Shown here: positions 6,272 to 34,091 of the stretch, piece by piece
How the letters are laid out: every line of letters starts with the position of its first letter
Position numbering within the stretch: the first letter of the stretch is position 1
Source: Candidatus Kapaibacterium sp.
Lineage (GTDB): Bacteria > Bacteroidota > Ignavibacteria > Kapaibacteriales > Kapaibacteriaceae
NCBI GenBank assembly: GCA_030830285.1
Contig: JAURNF010000037.1
Span: 1-35,452 of the forward strand
Direction: 5' to 3'
DNA length: 35,452 nucleotides
Notes under the pieces: generated by a model
What the model was told of the DNA's origin: nothing
Seen by the model: only the letters and a program-made list of their open reading frames with translations
Databases searched by the model: none
Program-made: the position numbers and the translations under genes

Positions 6272-7326
6272 ATCTGTTCCTTCGCTGCTGTTGCTGCATG
6301 TGCAAGTGCACGTTCAATTGTACCGTTGACATCCTTTCGAACTACTTCTTCAGCCCGAAGGATCATGTTTGCTAGCGCCTTTGGTGAACTGCTGCCGTGG
6401 CCAATGATCGTCACACCATTCACGCCGAGCAGTGGCACACCACCATACTCTTGATAGTCCATACCACTGAGCGCCTTCCGAAGCACAGGAGTGAACGCTG
6501 CCATGGCCAGCTTCTGAAGAATGCCGCGATTGGCATAGGCGCGGAAACGTTCTTTCAAGAAGCTGAGAATACTCTCGGCAAACTTGAGAACGATGTTGCC
6601 CTCGAAACCATCGCATACAACAACGTCAACTGTGCCGGCGAGAATATCACGCCCTTCCACGTTACCAGCGAAATTGACGCCGTTCGTGCGAAGCAACTCG
6701 TATGATTGTTGTGCTACCTCGGTGCCCTTGCCAGGTTCTTCTCCAACATTGAGCAAACCCACAGTGGGTGAGGTAACGCCATTCATGAGCTGCGTGTACA
6801 CGCTTCCCATGACAGCGTAATCAGAGAGGAACTTCGGCTTACTGTCGACATTGGCACCAACGTCGAGAAGCAGCGTTGGGCGACCTGTCTTGGTCGGAAG
6901 AAATGTGCCAATAGTTGGACGGCTCACGCCGGGGATACGACCACACAACATCGTCGACGTTGCCATCACTCCACCGGTGTTGCCTGCACTGACAAATGCG
7001 TCAGCCTTGCCTTGACGGACAAGGTCGAGACCCATGTACAAGGATGAGGTCTTTCGCTGCTTTACGATCGATGAGGGCTCGTCGCCCATTGCGATCACAT
7101 CGTCGGCATGCACGATCGAAACACGAGGATGCGCTGCATTGGAGCCGAGGGCTGCAACAAGTTCAGGCTCACGTCCTACCAAGATGAGTTCGATCAACGA
7201 CGATCGGTCAAGAGCTTGGATCACTCCCTGAACTTCATTTCCGGGCGCAAAATCACCGCCCATCGCGTCTACAACAATGCGGACGGGACGAACAGATTCG
7301 CTACCAGTGTGTGCGACGTCAGTCAC
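6268..7326 (-). CDS. plsX: Phosphate acyltransferase PlsX
   Basis: RIVVDAMGGDFAPGNEVQGV, SAGNTGGVMATS, CDGFEGNIVLKFAE, GGVPLLGVNGVTIIGHGSS. GTG start at 7326; overlaps the fabH start. Confidence 0.96.
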   Translation of the reverse strand: MTDVAHTGSESVRPVRIVVDAMGGDFAPGNEVQGVIQALDRSSLIELILVGREPELVAALGSNAAHPRVSIVHADDVIAMGDEPSSIVKQRKTSSLYMGLDLVRQGKADAFVSAGNTGGVMATSTMLCGRIPGVSRPTIGTFLPTKTGRPTLLLDVGANVDSKPKFLSDYAVMGSVYTQLMNGVTSPTVGLLNVGEEPGKGTEVAQQSYELLRTNGVNFAGNVEGRDILAGTVDVVVCDGFEGNIVLKFAESILSFLKERFRAYANRGILQKLAMAAFTPVLRKALSGMDYQEYGGVPLLGVNGVTIIGHGSSSPKALANMILRAEEVVRKDVNGTIERALAHAATAAKEQI

Positions 7327-7555: not shown

Positions 7556-8083
7556 TTACGTTCGATGGATGTTTTTCAGAGCTTCCCACCGATCATCGAC
7601 GTCATTCGACGGCTGTTCGGCGTCACGCCCCTTTATGCTTGGAAAGATCTCGTCAAGGTTCTTGTCTCGATAGGCCGGTGCCACACGCCGAGCGGGTATC
7701 GCAAGTGTAAGCACTTGCCGTACGTCTTCGGTGATGTCAATGGCCTTGTCGTCATCGCGAAGCCCCCGAACTTCTTCATCATCAAGCTCTGCGATGCGTC
7801 CACGTTGTTCAGCCGCTAATGCGGTGTCTACGCGATACTCGAGTTCAAACGACGCTTCGAGGGGTTCGTCGTATTCTTCGAGTGAACGATCACATATCAA
7901 CCGAGCTGTTGCTGCTGCCGTAGCAAACACCGTATAGCGTCCACCAACATGCTTCTGCATTAGCCCTTCGACGACAACGTCTTGCGTAAACTCCGAGCTT
8001 AGGCCGGGAATGTCTGACGCGTGAACCGTCATCGCGAATGGATGATTACCGTCCCGAATTCCCACGATGGAGATGTCTATCAT
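7556..8083 (-). CDS. DUF177 (YceD-like) protein
   Basis: Directly upstream of rpmF; acidic C-terminal DUF177-like pattern (ELEYRVD...DDDKAIDITEDVRQVLTLAIPARRVAPAYRDKN). ATG at 8083 (MIDISIVGIRD) preferred over GTG at 8131. Confidence 0.8.
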   Translation of the reverse strand: MIDISIVGIRDGNHPFAMTVHASDIPGLSSEFTQDVVVEGLMQKHVGGRYTVFATAAATARLICDRSLEEYDEPLEASFELEYRVDTALAAEQRGRIAELDDEEVRGLRDDDKAIDITEDVRQVLTLAIPARRVAPAYRDKNLDEIFPSIKGRDAEQPSNDVDDRWEALKNIHRT

Positions 8084-8166
8084 GGTCGTCCGGTTAGGTC
8101 CAATGTTGACAAGACTACGAAAATACGGCACTTAGCTGTTTTTCCAAAACAGCACTGGGGTGAGGA

Positions 8167-9894
8167 TCACCCACCAAGAGCCTTGAGGTTCTTCTTGGCG
8201 GCCTCATTATTCGGGTTGAGCTTCAGAACCTCTCGGTAGGCGCGCTTGGCGTTTTCAGCGTCTTGGAGACCCTGATAGCCAATTGCGAGGTACAACCACG
8301 CCGTTACTGACTTTGGATCAAGCTCCGTAGCGACCTTGCTACGAGAAACGATCGTAGACCACTGTTTTTCTTGAAGGGCGCGATCATTGAGTCGGGCGAT
8401 AGCGCCGATAGCCAGTTTTCGCTCGTCTGGGCTTGTCGACGTCTTGGCTGCTTCGATGATTTCATCGAGGAGGTCCTCGCCACGGTCAACCTCGCCCTTT
8501 GCGATGTATGTCTCGCCAAGTCGGGTCTTTGCATACGGATATCCTGGCTTCAGCGCGAGAGCCTTCTCGTACGAAACAATTGCGCTGTCGAGCAAGCTGT
8601 CAGCAAAGAAGTTGTTTCCAATGAAGACATGGATCTTTGGGTCGAGCGTGTCGTTACAGTTCTCGAGACGCTTACGGTAGATTTCCGTCGATCGTGCATA
8701 CATCGCGCGGTCCTGCAGCAGAATTCCATACTGGAACATGAACCGGCACTGCTTGGGGTCACGATCAGCTGCCTCTGCCATCACGTTGATGGCATTAGCT
8801 GTGTCGCCACTGACGACGAGCGCCACTCCATAGAACCAATAGTCCATGTTGTCCCAGCGACTCTTCACAGGGGTTGCATCTGTGTATCCCTTGACGCATT
8901 CCTTCCACTGACGCGACGTGAAGCTACACTTGGCAAGCATCAGCGCTACGTGTGGTCGCAACGAATCGACGCGAGATGCCACATCATCAAGGTGGATCTT
9001 TGCCGAATCGCACTTGTTCTGCTTGAAGTACGACTCACCAAGATACCACGAAGCAAGGTTCTCCCCTGTGCCCAGTGGACGAAGTTCACGGTAGCGAAGC
9101 AACGCCTGTGAAGCCTGTGCATACCGGCCAACAAGGTTGAGGATCTTCCCCTGCTCGTACCATGCACGTGCGTTCTTTGGATCAAGGTCGGTTACGTTAT
9201 CCCATGCTTCGAACGAACGCTTGACGTACTCAGCCTTGAGATCCTTATCGGACTCACGGTTTGCCATCTTCCAGTAACAGATGGCAAGATTGAAGTATGC
9301 CATGACATAGGACTTGTCGAGTTTAATCGCCTCTTCGTAGTTCTGAACTGCAAGTTCGAACACAGGGAACGGCTTGCTGCTGAAGTAGATGTTGCCGAGA
9401 GCAATGTATGCCGATGCACTCGATGAGTGCTTGTCACGAGCAGTCGTTGCAACAAGCTCCGCCGAACGCAGACTGTCAGCAGCTACCAGCGCATTGACGA
9501 GCTCAAGACTTACATCTACATCATCGCGCTTTTTTAGGGCCTTGCGAAGCATCGTCGAAGCTTCAGCTGGCTGCCCTGCCTCGCGAAGTGCCTCACCGTA
9601 CAGAAGGATACGCTCTTCTTCCTCGTTATCGTCTTCGTACACGCGACGTGCATACGTCAGCGCTGTATCACGAATGTCGAGTTCAAGGTAGACGCGCGCA
9701 GCAACAACAAGGACGTCCATATCCTGAGGCGAGCTCGCTACCGCCTTGCGGATGTGTCCCAGCGCAGCTACCCACTCACGCTCCTTGATGGCTTCCTTGG
9801 CTTTGGAGAAGTCATCAGCTACCATCGTCACCGTGGTCAGGATAGCAGTCAGCGCTATCAGAACTGTGGTACGAGCAGATATCATCGCAAGCAT
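8167..9894 (-). CDS. Exported tetratricopeptide-repeat protein
   Basis: Signal-like MLAMISARTTVLIALTAILTTVTMVADDF, then many TPR-like repeats (AYIALGNIYFSS, AYFNLAICYWKMA, AWYEQGKILNLVGRYAQASQAL, AWLYLAIGYQGLQDAENAKRAYREVLKLNPNN). An alternative ATG at 9984 extends it by 30 codons. Confidence 0.85.
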   Translation of the reverse strand: MLAMISARTTVLIALTAILTTVTMVADDFSKAKEAIKEREWVAALGHIRKAVASSPQDMDVLVVAARVYLELDIRDTALTYARRVYEDDNEEEERILLYGEALREAGQPAEASTMLRKALKKRDDVDVSLELVNALVAADSLRSAELVATTARDKHSSSASAYIALGNIYFSSKPFPVFELAVQNYEEAIKLDKSYVMAYFNLAICYWKMANRESDKDLKAEYVKRSFEAWDNVTDLDPKNARAWYEQGKILNLVGRYAQASQALLRYRELRPLGTGENLASWYLGESYFKQNKCDSAKIHLDDVASRVDSLRPHVALMLAKCSFTSRQWKECVKGYTDATPVKSRWDNMDYWFYGVALVVSGDTANAINVMAEAADRDPKQCRFMFQYGILLQDRAMYARSTEIYRKRLENCNDTLDPKIHVFIGNNFFADSLLDSAIVSYEKALALKPGYPYAKTRLGETYIAKGEVDRGEDLLDEIIEAAKTSTSPDERKLAIGAIARLNDRALQEKQWSTIVSRSKVATELDPKSVTAWLYLAIGYQGLQDAENAKRAYREVLKLNPNNEAAKKNLKALGG

Positions 9895-29261: not shown

Positions 29262-31457
29262 ATGACCGACGACATTTTGAAATGGCAGCAGCAAGCTCTT
29301 GATGCTGTCATCGACATCGCCGGCCTTTCATCTCGTCCATCAGCCATTGTGCGCGCTCGTGCGCGCGTCATGGAGATCACCGACACAAGTGCTGCGTCAC
29401 TTGAGGTCATTGCGTCGACGCTTCGTGAAATCGGCATCTCTGCACAGTGTCAGCGGGTGACCGTTTCTACGCCCTTGCCTGTGGCTGCTACGCGTGTTTT
29501 GACGCTCGATAGGGACGGGTGGATCATTCAGACGACGATTTCTGCTTCCAACCCATGGTCTGCGGTTATCGGTGAGCGTTCTGACATTCAAGTGATCTTG
29601 ATCAACGGTCGCTACCACTCTGTGTTCACAGGCGATTCCTCGATGCCTGATCACCGCGGACATCCGCTCTACGACTCAAAGCATCATGGCCTTGACAAGG
29701 ATGCGAAGGAACTCCCGTACCGATTCCGTGACGTATGGCCGTCGATCAAGCGCATGCTTCGACTTGAGCGACGTGACATCTGGATTGTGATGATTTACTC
29801 AATCGTTACAAGTCTTCTCGGGTTGGTAGTACCGCTGAGTTCACAGTCAATCGTCAACGCCGTTGCATTGGGTGTATTTAGTCAACAGCTGATCGTCCTG
29901 TGTGTTGTCGTGTTTCTTGCACTCACGGCAATGGCGTTTCTCGACGTCCTCGAACGGCATGTGATCGATATGATCCAGCGTCGCATGTTTGTGTCAACGG
30001 CCTTTGATATTGTCTACCGACTTCCCCACCTGACAAATGCCGTCATGCGACGCTCGTACGGTCCAGAGCTGGTGAACAGATTCTTTGACGTAATCACCGT
30101 TCAGAAGTCAGTCGCAAAGTTTCTGCTCGAGGGTACGAATGCCTTGCTTGTGGTTCTCACCGGACTGATCGTTCTTGGCATTTATCATCCGTTCTTTCTT
30201 GTCTACGACGTTGTGTTCATTCTGTTCATCCCGTTCCTCATTTTCATTCTTGGTCGGGGTGCTGTAACGACAGCTGTCAAAACATCAAAGATGAAGTACA
30301 TGGCCGCCGCTTGGCTTGAGGACGTTGCACGTAATCAGCTGGGATTCAAGCTTACACGCACGAGCCCGTTCATCTTCACACGAGTCGATGACATCAGCAC
30401 TGGATATGTCGAGGCACGCCAGAAGCACTTCCTCATCATGGCGCGCCAAATATTTGGCTCGTACATTTTCCGGGGATTTGCCACTGTTGGCGTTCTGGCC
30501 CTTGGCGGTATCCTCGTGATCGAACAGGCTATCTCACTTGGCCAACTGGTCGCAGCTGAGATCATCATCATCCTTGTGTTTGGCGCCATGGATAAGTTGA
30601 TAACCCAGTTCGATTCGTACTACGACATGGTAGCTGCATTGAACAAGATCAGCGGTCTTGTTGATCAAGAACTTGAGGACGTCGGTGGCTTGCATGTGCC
30701 GCATTACGACGACGGTGCTGAATTGGCTGCGCATAACTTGTCATTTACATACGACGATCAGCAGATTCTCAGTGACGTAAACTTCAAGATATCTCGTGGT
30801 GAACGCGTTAGTCTTATCGGCGCAAGTGGTTCTGGCAAGTCTACCCTTGCAGCGATCATTTTGGGACTTGAAGCTCCCAACCGTGGCACAGTTGAAGTGA
30901 ACGGTATCGATACCCGAACCGCTGATCTGCGCTCCTTGCGAAAGCACGTCGGGTACATCTTCTCAGAAAATCAGATTATTCCAGGGACCGTGCTTGAGAA
31001 CATCACTCTCGGTCGCGAAGTCTCGTATGATGATCTCACCTGGGCACTTGAGATGGCATGCTTGCCTGACGTCGTGCGTGGGCTTCCTAACGGTTTGCAC
31101 ACAATGCTATCGGCGACAGGCGACAACGTCGCACTTGGTGTTCGCCGGATGATTCTCTTTGCTCGTATGATTCTCGATCGCCCAGAGCTACTTGTTATCG
31201 ACGAAGGCTTTGAAGGGATTGATGATGGCACAAAGCTCAGAATGTTCGGCAACATTGTTGCGTGGAAACACTGGACTGTGATGAACATCACGCACGATCC
31301 TGAATTGCTTCAGCGTACGCGTCGGGCGATTATCCTACAACAAGGGCGCATTGTCGAACAAGGTGCCGTGCCAGATATGCTCATAGGTAGTTCGACACTA
31401 GCGAAGCTCTTCCCAGAGCTGTGTACAGCAGCATCGAAGGGAGGCAGCAATGGCTGA
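29262..31457 (+). CDS. Type I-secretion-like ABC transporter with atypical NBD
   Basis: TM domain, Walker A GASGSGKST, Walker B LLVIDE, H-loop NITHD; the signature region reads NVALGVRRM rather than LSGGQRQR. Followed by HlyD and TolC family genes. Confidence 0.88.
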   Translation: MTDDILKWQQQALDAVIDIAGLSSRPSAIVRARARVMEITDTSAASLEVIASTLREIGISAQCQRVTVSTPLPVAATRVLTLDRDGWIIQTTISASNPWSAVIGERSDIQVILINGRYHSVFTGDSSMPDHRGHPLYDSKHHGLDKDAKELPYRFRDVWPSIKRMLRLERRDIWIVMIYSIVTSLLGLVVPLSSQSIVNAVALGVFSQQLIVLCVVVFLALTAMAFLDVLERHVIDMIQRRMFVSTAFDIVYRLPHLTNAVMRRSYGPELVNRFFDVITVQKSVAKFLLEGTNALLVVLTGLIVLGIYHPFFLVYDVVFILFIPFLIFILGRGAVTTAVKTSKMKYMAAAWLEDVARNQLGFKLTRTSPFIFTRVDDISTGYVEARQKHFLIMARQIFGSYIFRGFATVGVLALGGILVIEQAISLGQLVAAEIIIILVFGAMDKLITQFDSYYDMVAALNKISGLVDQELEDVGGLHVPHYDDGAELAAHNLSFTYDDQQILSDVNFKISRGERVSLIGASGSGKSTLAAIILGLEAPNRGTVEVNGIDTRTADLRSLRKHVGYIFSENQIIPGTVLENITLGREVSYDDLTWALEMACLPDVVRGLPNGLHTMLSATGDNVALGVRRMILFARMILDRPELLVIDEGFEGIDDGTKLRMFGNIVAWKHWTVMNITHDPELLQRTRRAIILQQGRIVEQGAVPDMLIGSSTLAKLFPELCTAASKGGSNG

Positions 31458-32724
31458 TTCACAACGTCGTCCTGACACATCGACAGATGTGTTTGCGGCC
31501 GAACGAGCTCACCGAAGCGTGTTTCGTCTGGTTACCACGAACAAGGGACATCGCAATCTCGTTATTGTACTCGCCGCCATGGTCGCAGTCATCATTGCGT
31601 TTCTCGTCCTCGTGCCATGGCAGCAGACGGTACGTGGTTCGGGGAAGGTCACATCGTTTGCTCCTGAAGCACGTCCTCAAACTGTTGAAAGCCGAATCAA
31701 CGGACGCATTGTGCGTTGGTATGTGCGTGAAGGTGCACGGGTTCGTAAGGGCGACACGATTGCAATTCTTGCCGACATCAACGTCAACTTCCTCGACTCG
31801 AATCTGCTTGGTCGACTTCAGTCACTGAGAGACAACGTCGAGAGTGCGCAAGATCGGTCAATTGCAGTTGCAACTGAACGACGCAAGCAAGCACTGCAGC
31901 GATATGATGCATCGCGCGCACGTCTTGATAACGCACGAATTGAGTGTGCAACGGCGCGCATTCGCTATGTGCGAGCAGACACCTTGTTCCGTCAAGATGT
32001 CGTGTCGAGACGTGAGTTCGAAACTGCCCAACTCAATCTCCAGAAGGCCGTAGCAGACTCGGTGAATGCCGTAGCATCAGTGAATGTTGCGCAGCAGGAT
32101 GTCACAGCAGCACTTGCCGAGGAAGAGCGCGTTGTCAACCAAGCTATTGTGAGTGTGCAGGAAGCTGATGTTCGGTTGAGCAATACGGAAAACCGACTCG
32201 GCTTTGGTGTCATCTTAGCGCCGCTTGACGGAACCGTTGTGCGCATCGCAAAGGCTGGTGCCGGACAAACCGTGAGGGAGGGTGATGAACTTGCCCTCAT
32301 CGTGCCAACGACAACTGATCAGGCTGTTGAGATCTATGTCAGCAGTATGGATGCCGCACTGATCTCGCCTGGTCGTATGGTATCGCTGCACTTTAGTGGT
32401 TTCCCAGCGTTTCAGTTCAGCGGATGGCGAAACATCAATGTCGGCATCTTCCACGGCACAGTAAAGGTGGTTGATGCCGTTGATGAAGGCACAGGCCGCT
32501 TCCGAGTGCTTGTAGTGCCGTTCGAAGAGCCTGGTTACACGCAATGGCCAGACGAACAATTCCTACGTCAGGGTACGGACGCCTCAGCTTGGGTGCTTCT
32601 TGATGAAGTCTCAATCGGATATGAACTCTGGCGTCAGCTCATGGGCTTCCCGCCTCAGTTCCCAGTGCCAGTAAAGGATGAACGCGTGAAACAGCAGGAA
32701 TCTCAGGCGAAGGCAAAGAAATGA
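31450..32724 (+). CDS. HlyD-family periplasmic adaptor / membrane fusion protein
   Basis: N-terminal TM; barrel-sandwich halves VESRINGRIVRWYVREGARVRKGDTIAIL and ILAPLDGTVVRIAKAGAGQTVREGDELALIV around a coiled coil. Overlaps the ABC gene end by 8 nt. Confidence 0.93.
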   Translation: MADSQRRPDTSTDVFAAERAHRSVFRLVTTNKGHRNLVIVLAAMVAVIIAFLVLVPWQQTVRGSGKVTSFAPEARPQTVESRINGRIVRWYVREGARVRKGDTIAILADINVNFLDSNLLGRLQSLRDNVESAQDRSIAVATERRKQALQRYDASRARLDNARIECATARIRYVRADTLFRQDVVSRREFETAQLNLQKAVADSVNAVASVNVAQQDVTAALAEEERVVNQAIVSVQEADVRLSNTENRLGFGVILAPLDGTVVRIAKAGAGQTVREGDELALIVPTTTDQAVEIYVSSMDAALISPGRMVSLHFSGFPAFQFSGWRNINVGIFHGTVKVVDAVDEGTGRFRVLVVPFEEPGYTQWPDEQFLRQGTDASAWVLLDEVSIGYELWRQLMGFPPQFPVPVKDERVKQQESQAKAKK

Positions 32725-34091
32725 TCCTGCGTGTGCTTCCAATCATCGTGGCTGTGTGCATGGCGACATCAGTTGCTGCGCAGCAGATCGTCACACTCGA
32801 GTCCTACCTCCAACTCGTAGAACGTCAGCATCCTTCCCTACGCTCAGCCACATTTGAGCCAGAGCTTGCGGAAGCAGAGATTCGTTCTGCACTCGGCAGC
32901 TTCGACCCTCTCGTGAGTATGTCGTACGAGTATAAGGACAAGTCAGGCGCTGACAAGTTGAATCTGTTCGAGGGCTCACTTGAGCTGCCACTCGACATGA
33001 TGTTTGGTCCGAAGCTCAAGGCATCATACACACGCGGTCTCGGCACCAATGTGAATCCGGAGCAACTCACGACATTACCTGGTGAAGGCTCCGTAGGAAT
33101 ATCGTTGCCGGTGCTTCAAGGCATTTTCACCGACGCTCGCCGTAACACGCTTCGCAAAGCGATGCTGCGTCCGGATCTTGCACGCGCACAGTATCAACTC
33201 GAGCGCAACACATTGTTGCGTTCGGCAGCGCTTCGCTACTGGGATTGGAGCGAGGCCTTATCTGCTCTCGATGTAGCTGATTCGCTTCTCAGGCTTGCAC
33301 AGACCCGTGCGACCTTCATCAAGCGGCGCGTACTCGCGGGCGAGTCAGCAGGAATCGATACAGTTGAAATCCAACAAGAAGTGCAACGCCGTATCGGTGA
33401 ACGACTCCGAGCACTGCGCATCGTTGAGCAGTTCGCCATTGACGTTTCAGTATTCGTCTGGAATCCCGACGGCTCACAGCCGAATATGGCACTCCTTCGT
33501 CCGTTCCCGTTGCCACTCGATGAAGGCGCTGCGGTACGTCTTGAGGACCAAGTCGTACAGGCTCGCGCACTTCGTCCAGAACTTCAACGGATCGGCGTGC
33601 TACAAGAAACCTCCCGTCTCGATTCAGCACTGGCATCTGAGTTTCTCCGACCATACGTCGAGTTGGAGGCCGGTTTGATGTCATACGACGTCTCGGCTAT
33701 CAGTAAGCTCGACTACAAGGTTGGCGTGCGGGTACATCAACCATTGTTGTTTCGCCAAGCAAGCGCACAGGTTCAGACGGCAGGCATCGGCGTACAACGC
33801 GCCGACCTGTCGCGCTCTCTACTCGAGCGAATGGTCGATGCCGATGTCGCAAATGCTATTGTTAGTGTGGATCGCACCCGAGAACGCCTCCAAGCTGCCG
33901 AACAGGAACAAGACCTGGCACGGCGCATGGTAGACGCCGAGCAACAGCGCTTCCTTTCTGGTGATTCGTCACTCCTGGCAGTTAATCTCCGTGAGAGGTT
34001 TTACGCCGAGGCGCTCCTCCGCGTAATCTCTGCTCGCGCTGACCTTGCCCGCGCATTTATCAACCTGCGGTGGGCTACGGGAACCATCTGA
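32721..34091 (+). CDS. TolC-family outer membrane efflux protein
   Basis: Signal peptide ILRVLPIIVAVCMATSVAAQQ, VTLESYLQLVERQHPSLRSA, coiled-coil repeat structure, VNLRERFYAEALLRVISARADLARAFINLRWATG. ATGA overlap with the HlyD gene. Confidence 0.9.
   Translation: MILRVLPIIVAVCMATSVAAQQIVTLESYLQLVERQHPSLRSATFEPELAEAEIRSALGSFDPLVSMSYEYKDKSGADKLNLFEGSLELPLDMMFGPKLKASYTRGLGTNVNPEQLTTLPGEGSVGISLPVLQGIFTDARRNTLRKAMLRPDLARAQYQLERNTLLRSAALRYWDWSEALSALDVADSLLRLAQTRATFIKRRVLAGESAGIDTVEIQQEVQRRIGERLRALRIVEQFAIDVSVFVWNPDGSQPNMALLRPFPLPLDEGAAVRLEDQVVQARALRPELQRIGVLQETSRLDSALASEFLRPYVELEAGLMSYDVSAISKLDYKVGVRVHQPLLFRQASAQVQTAGIGVQRADLSRSLLERMVDADVANAIVSVDRTRERLQAAEQEQDLARRMVDAEQQRFLSGDSSLLAVNLRERFYAEALLRVISARADLARAFINLRWATGTI

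Follow-up and report, generated by a model that had tools for sequence, protein, structure and literature searches.

The window, a stretch of 35,452 nucleotides from Candidatus Kapaibacterium sp., contains an ABC-HlyD-TolC operon which we take, with reasonable but far from complete confidence, to encode a tripartite exporter of an uncurated ABC-derived family, with the transmembrane domain (TMD) as the working part and the ATPase domain (NBD) being given up. The family of the window protein is widespread in Bacteroidota and present in Sphingomonadales as well, and the TMD is the part of it that is kept by selection. Judged from the sequences, the ATPase domain is dispensable, having decayed clade by clade and having been deleted in one clade that retains the HlyD-TolC operon; by the same evidence an ATPase cannot be general to the family, which suggests that its pumps run without ATP hydrolysis.

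Organization of the operon and its ABC-exporter-like protein

The relevant features of the window are:
29262..31457, + strand: ABC-exporter-like inner-membrane protein, 731 aa (PF00005, E=8.6e-25; ABC_membrane weak, E=0.0077)
29262..29726, + strand: N-terminal extension, residues 1-155, fast-evolving, no Pfam hit
29727..30701, + strand: transmembrane domain, residues 156-480, the most conserved portion of the locus by identity and pN/pS
30066..30107, + strand: ELVNRFFDVITVQK, ICL1 / first coupling-helix region (N272, R273 and K282 invariant, 92/92)
30540..30560, + strand: GQLVAAE, start of the TM6 region, with E433 (90/92)
30819..30845, + strand: Walker A GASGSGKST (K526), residues 520-528
30951..30974, + strand: Q-loop region GYIFSENQ, S568 replacing Gln by alignment
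31119..31148, + strand: signature region GDNVALGVRR, V623-A-L-G-V627 replacing LSGGQ by alignment
31188..31223, + strand: Walker B LLVIDE (D647, E648) and D-loop GFEGID
31284..31298, + strand: H-loop NITHD (H678)
31450..32724, + strand: HlyD-family periplasmic adaptor (PF13437, 2.4e-11), 8-base overlap with the ABC gene
32721..34091, + strand: TolC-family outer-membrane factor (PF02321, 1.4e-26), 4-base overlap with the HlyD gene

The operon is flanked by ftsK-uvrA upstream and etfB-etfA downstream, and this gene neighbourhood is found again in same-family genomes. Neither in the window nor in the neighbourhoods of relatives that were inspected does the operon contain a second ABC gene; canonical ABC exporters are encoded elsewhere in the genome. 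The TMD matches ComA and BmrA by profile and is followed by a PF00005 NBD (about residues 486-710), the arrangement of the ABC exporter (type IV) fold; SbmA does not appear in the list of PDB entries matched by the TMD profile. By homology the window protein is an ABC exporter, but one in which S568 and VALGV stand in for the Q-loop Gln and the LSGGQ signature. No curated model names its family. The top NCBIfam match, TIGR03375, scores 222 bits against a cutoff of 693, and two further type I secretion models, TIGR01842 and TIGR01846, yield 185 and 155 bits against cutoffs of 510 and 726.

The N-terminal extension (~155 aa) occupies the position of the peptidase-like domain of HlyB/LssB. It is missing from many relatives and is as variable as the NBD, with 75% identity to the protein of G007, an independent genome of the same genus, and 15-32% to most of the other same-family proteins in which it is present. 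AlphaFold2 prediction of residues 151-731 from a two-sequence alignment gave a pLDDT of 36 and a pTM of 0.23, and we draw no structural argument from it.

ATP-site motifs of the window protein

The first-pass annotation had described an exporter ATPase with intact Walker A, Walker B Glu and H-loop His but without the Q-loop Gln and LSGGQ. Its ORF and motif coordinates proved exact (Walker A at 30819-30845, EGFEGID ending at 31223), and K526, D647/E648 and H678 are all present. Aligned without gaps to P-gp, to canonical exporters encoded in the same genome and to the ABC model of Pfam, the protein has S568 in the Gln column and VALGV in the LSGGQ column, so that the misalignment which that annotation had itself considered did not occur. 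The description of LSGGQ as missing went somewhat too far: Gly626, the fourth signature residue, is retained, and the signature is therefore degenerate and not wholly absent. Similarly, the altered EGFEGID is found at the D-loop as reported, but the D-loop Asp (D654) is still there. Nor are these changes due to sequencing error, since G007 (locus L027; also record CAJAIA010000001.1, L056, an Ignavibacteria MAG) reads LALGI at the signature and FSEN in the Q-loop region.

A widespread family with graded loss of motifs

Homologs were detected in 48 of 119 relatives and full-family matches (E below 1e-95) in about 100 of 396 phylum-sampled genomes; a scan of viral contigs found no relatives. The first-pass annotation had asked whether homologs next to HlyD and TolC genes share the degenerate signature, and they do: LSGGQ occurs in none of the 82 NBD-bearing members sampled, and Gly at signature position 3 in a single one. 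Gln is found in the Q-loop column in 3/82 and one column downstream in 11/82, and the Walker A Lys is present in 79/82. A tally over 92 members showed Walker A, Walker B and the H-loop all retained in 32, two of these three motifs in 8, one in 39 and none in 3, the NBD being entirely absent from the remaining 10.

On the TMD tree the loss of motifs is ordered, from the Q-loop Gln to the signature, then Walker B together with the H-loop, and finally Walker A; this tree is unrooted, and the direction, decay, is taken from the ancestral state of ABC exporters, in which the motifs are canonical, and from no outgroup. One clade has LSTGQ or LSTGE and retains all other motifs except the Q-loop Gln. 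These near-canonical NBDs with Walker A/B and His (L063-L069, L049-L055, L059 and L061), whose main defect is the missing Gln, constitute a natural test of the necessity of this residue. The clade of the window retains Walker A, Walker B and the H-loop His with LSFGM, ISFGM or VALGV as signatures, and a clade of 45 rows has lost Walker B and the His. In the genus of the window, the Walker B Glu is lost together with the H-loop His in G001, G005, G008 and G009, and every motif including Walker A in G006. The G006 gene (L048 1471-3288) is an open frame of 606 aa in which Walker A (GPNPQELTY), Walker B (INN) and the H-loop are gone, with a TMD 57% identical to that of the window protein. Plasmid copies in Novosphingobium and Sphingobium have lost all NBD motifs and retain NRFF...QK and GQLVAAE.

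At L057 (JABMNI010000021.1; the same gene in L040, G011) an in-frame TAG at 7051-7053, shortly before Walker A, splits an intact TMD ORF from a 200-aa NBD ORF, with HlyD and TolC intact downstream. The stop may mark a natural truncation under way, or it may be an error of the MAG.

A TetR-family regulator gene adjoins the operon at L138, L146, L151, L169, L171, L174, L176, L067 and L070, a set that includes one locus without an NBD (L138); it is absent from the window's own operon. Because TetR genes are found next to the operons of many relatives, we suggest that the family effluxes small molecules rather than secreting large RTX-type proteins.

Members without an NBD

Six hits in the phylum align to the TMD alone. 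Their genes encode 332-339 aa and are directly followed by HlyD and then TolC in 6/6 neighbourhoods, with no NBD gene between. Two families were searched for such loci, counted by ORF length (at most 430 aa): about 16 of 46 hits in the first and about 50 loci in the second, where the family is present in 140 of 151 genomes, give a total of about 65, all approximate because a few loci lie near contig ends. Several of them stem from genomes of one to four contigs. The NBD-less members form one nested clade on the TMD tree, and the simplest reading of this topology would be a single old loss of the NBD followed by diversification. Pairs within the clade are under purifying selection (pN/pS 0.18-0.24).

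The choice offered by the first-pass annotation, a non-canonical cycle or a half that needs an unlinked partner NBD, overlooks that the NBD is dispensable in the family. Two observations argue against need of a partner as a general answer. At E<=1e-60 the majority of genomes with an NBD-less member contain no other member of the family, and hence no NBD-bearing paralog. In the four NBD-less genomes checked, no detached NBD of the family type was found; the remaining matches were canonical exporters of full length and stand-alone ATPases, the latter scoring 67 bits or less. With single family members and no detached NBD, a heterodimer or an NBD acting in trans was rejected as a general solution. 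Of the six NBD-less neighbourhoods only that of L138 has an ABC ATPase gene, two genes downstream from TolC. At L141 a second adaptor gene of the HlyD_D23 type (7766-8890) lies just upstream of the NBD-less TMD-HlyD-TolC operon.

Selection on the TMD and the NBD

Between the window and G007 the TMD is 97% and the NBD 73% identical, and the corresponding values for G002 are 73% and 57%. Four canonical exporters of the same genomes do not show this gap, their TMD/NBD identities being 92/92, 94/87, 87/82 and 91/91 in the G007 comparison and 77/79, 76/72, 68/67 and 81/79 in the G002 comparison. Since synonymous sites are near saturation we used pN/pS, which is comparative only: it amounts to 0.037 for the TMD and 0.25 for the NBD (window versus G007), with HlyD at 0.10, TolC at 0.13, EtfB at 0.06, UvrA at 0.12 and FtsK at 0.11. 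Within the NBD, the core (residues 551-683) has a pN/pS of about 0.11 and the edges 0.35-0.54. We rejected simple drift of the window NBD, as its core is under constraint and relaxation is confined to the edges. Given this constraint, nucleotide binding or clamping of the dimer is probably still a function of the NBD in the window's clade, and for the window protein itself there is room for a weak or altered ATPase cycle. With the operon conserved in relatives, near-identical motifs in G007 and purifying selection, the earlier argument that an intact operon speaks against a pseudogene holds.

Near-invariant residues of the TMD are N272-R273-F-F-D276, Q281-K282, S342, K345, H389, G427, A431, E433 and K462, and they are shared by the NBD-less members; a second acidic position of TM6, D/E444, is kept in 89/92. 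The ELVNRFFDVITVQK motif is likewise retained in NBD-less and Sphingomonadales members. As the profile alignment places E433 opposite Ile in BmrA and Asn in ComA, we do not claim that it is the positional equivalent of LmrA E314.

A model for the exporter and its alternatives

In the model that we favour, a TMD homodimer would alternate access and hand the substrate to HlyD-TolC without ATP hydrolysis. The energy would come from a proton (or ion) gradient, most likely via the acidic residues E433 and D/E444 of TM6; proton coupling is possible in view of their conservation and of the precedents discussed below. In members of the window type, the NBD would still bind ATP, perhaps hydrolysing it at a residual rate, and serve as a clamp or regulator. 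The main point that this model leaves unexplained is the ICL1 coupling-helix motif, which, unlike in SbmA, is retained by members without an NBD, so that a cytoplasmic partner could still dock there. Counting against the model are also the constrained NBD core of the window protein and the retention of its signature variant in a sister species, which together indicate that the NBD has some role. We regard it as an even chance that this phylum-wide family of tripartite exporters has exchanged ATP for an ion gradient (or has come to work with no ATPase of any kind), each intermediate stage having survived.

It is conceivable, if rather unlikely, that the NBD of the window's clade is a working ATPase with a changed cycle, hydrolysing slowly at two equivalent sites, and that loss occurred elsewhere only. 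LSxG-type signatures (LSFGM, VALGV) together with an S/P Q-loop would support slow hydrolysis, Walker A, D647/E648, H678 and Gly626 are intact, and both the constraint on the NBD core and the recurrence of LSFGM/ISFGM within the clade fit such an enzyme. However, the same-genus members in which the Walker B Glu and the H-loop His are gone, and even G006 (L048) without any motif, have kept the operon and a TMD still 57-62% identical; moreover, the signature Ser is gone from the window protein itself, and its NBD is less conserved than its TMD. We consider it improbable that the protein is a half powered in trans by a canonical ABC half-transporter or by a stand-alone NBD encoded elsewhere. The coupling-helix region retained even where the NBD is gone, and the canonical exporters of the genome, would suit this idea, but it has to contend with the solitary family members of most NBD-less genomes, with the four genomes in which stand-alone ATPases reach at most 67 bits and no family-type NBD is detached, and with the lack of a recurrent ABC gene in the operons. 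Besides, an NBD-less half joined to one canonical half would possess one NBD only.

Very doubtful, too, is a TMD without energy coupling of its own that serves the adaptor-TolC channel as a scaffold or gated passive conduit. The domain that would supply energy is wholly dispensable and the source proposed above is inferred, both of which would agree with a conduit; on the other hand, near-invariance of the acidic residues of TM6 and of the basic residues of the cytoplasmic loops would not be expected of it, nor would a TetR-linked operon as in efflux pumps. A sequencing error or decaying pseudogene is hardly credible: the deviations are located at the catalytic motifs, but near-identical motifs in an independent genome, purifying selection and an operon conserved across a phylum refute it.

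Comparison with known transport systems

The type I secretion ABC transporters (LssB/LapB-type TIGR03375, PrtD TIGR01842, HlyB TIGR01846) have the same domain order as the window family and share the HlyD and TolC operon with it. The window family differs in that LSGGQ is absent and the Q-loop Gln almost so, in that many members are without catalytic residues or NBD, in its link to TetR genes and in scores far below the curated cutoffs. The second-best profile match is NHLM bacteriocin export ABC2 (TIGR03797), at 216 bits also far below its cutoff of 709; no bacteriocin maturation genes were seen in the window neighbourhood. In heterodimeric exporters (TM287/288, TAP, CydDC type) one composite ATP site is degenerate and the other canonical. 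A degenerate composite site is common to both, but in the window family both sites of a homodimer would be degenerate and NBDs are lost, and no adjacent partner with complementary canonical motifs is encoded in the operons of the window or its relatives.

SbmA/BacA (SLiPT; ABC relatives YddA/BclA) resemble the family as natural NBD-less relatives of type IV exporter TMDs. SbmA/SLiPT proteins are proton-driven and carry conserved glutamates (PMC13316013), with which the two near-invariant acidic positions E433 and D/E444 would be compatible. A SLiPT imports on its own, possesses an extra TM0 and lacks coupling helices, whereas the window family is linked to HlyD/TolC, retains the ICL1 motif and abounds in intermediates with degenerate NBDs; the window protein has an NBD, only one clade of its relatives being without it, and the 332-339 aa of that clade leave no room for a TM0. 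By analogy the family would work like a SLiPT, but it is not a member of that group. LmrA-MD and MsbA-MD, engineered without an NBD, show proton-coupled transport, and a Glu in TM6 of LmrA is required for its delta-pH dependence (PMC2704374, PMC4979069). These are laboratory truncations, whereas that of the window family is natural and old.

Support for an ABC exporter TMD as a secondary transporter has so far come mainly from the engineered LmrA/MsbA truncations and from SbmA. The window family supplies natural, old and TolC-linked cases with and without an NBD and, if our reading is true, would join SbmA/BacA as the second branch of ABC exporters to be naturally NBD-less. To our knowledge it would be the first such branch in a HlyD-TolC machine. 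We found no description of such a family in the open-access literature, which is weak evidence of novelty. Public annotation names even members without ATP-site motifs 'ABC transporter ATP-binding protein', and for this reason many Bacteroidota pumps are taken to depend on ATP, perhaps wrongly. The question is directly testable in cultured hosts such as Novosphingobium aromaticivorans (pNL2, SARO_RS19820), Aureibacter and Persicobacter. Two Sphingomonadales operon copies, L178 4953-6671 (N. aromaticivorans pNL2, WP_049759575.1) and L179 3929-5635, have no recognisable ATP-site motif in the NBD and are annotated as 'ABC transporter transmembrane domain-containing protein' or 'ATP-binding protein'.
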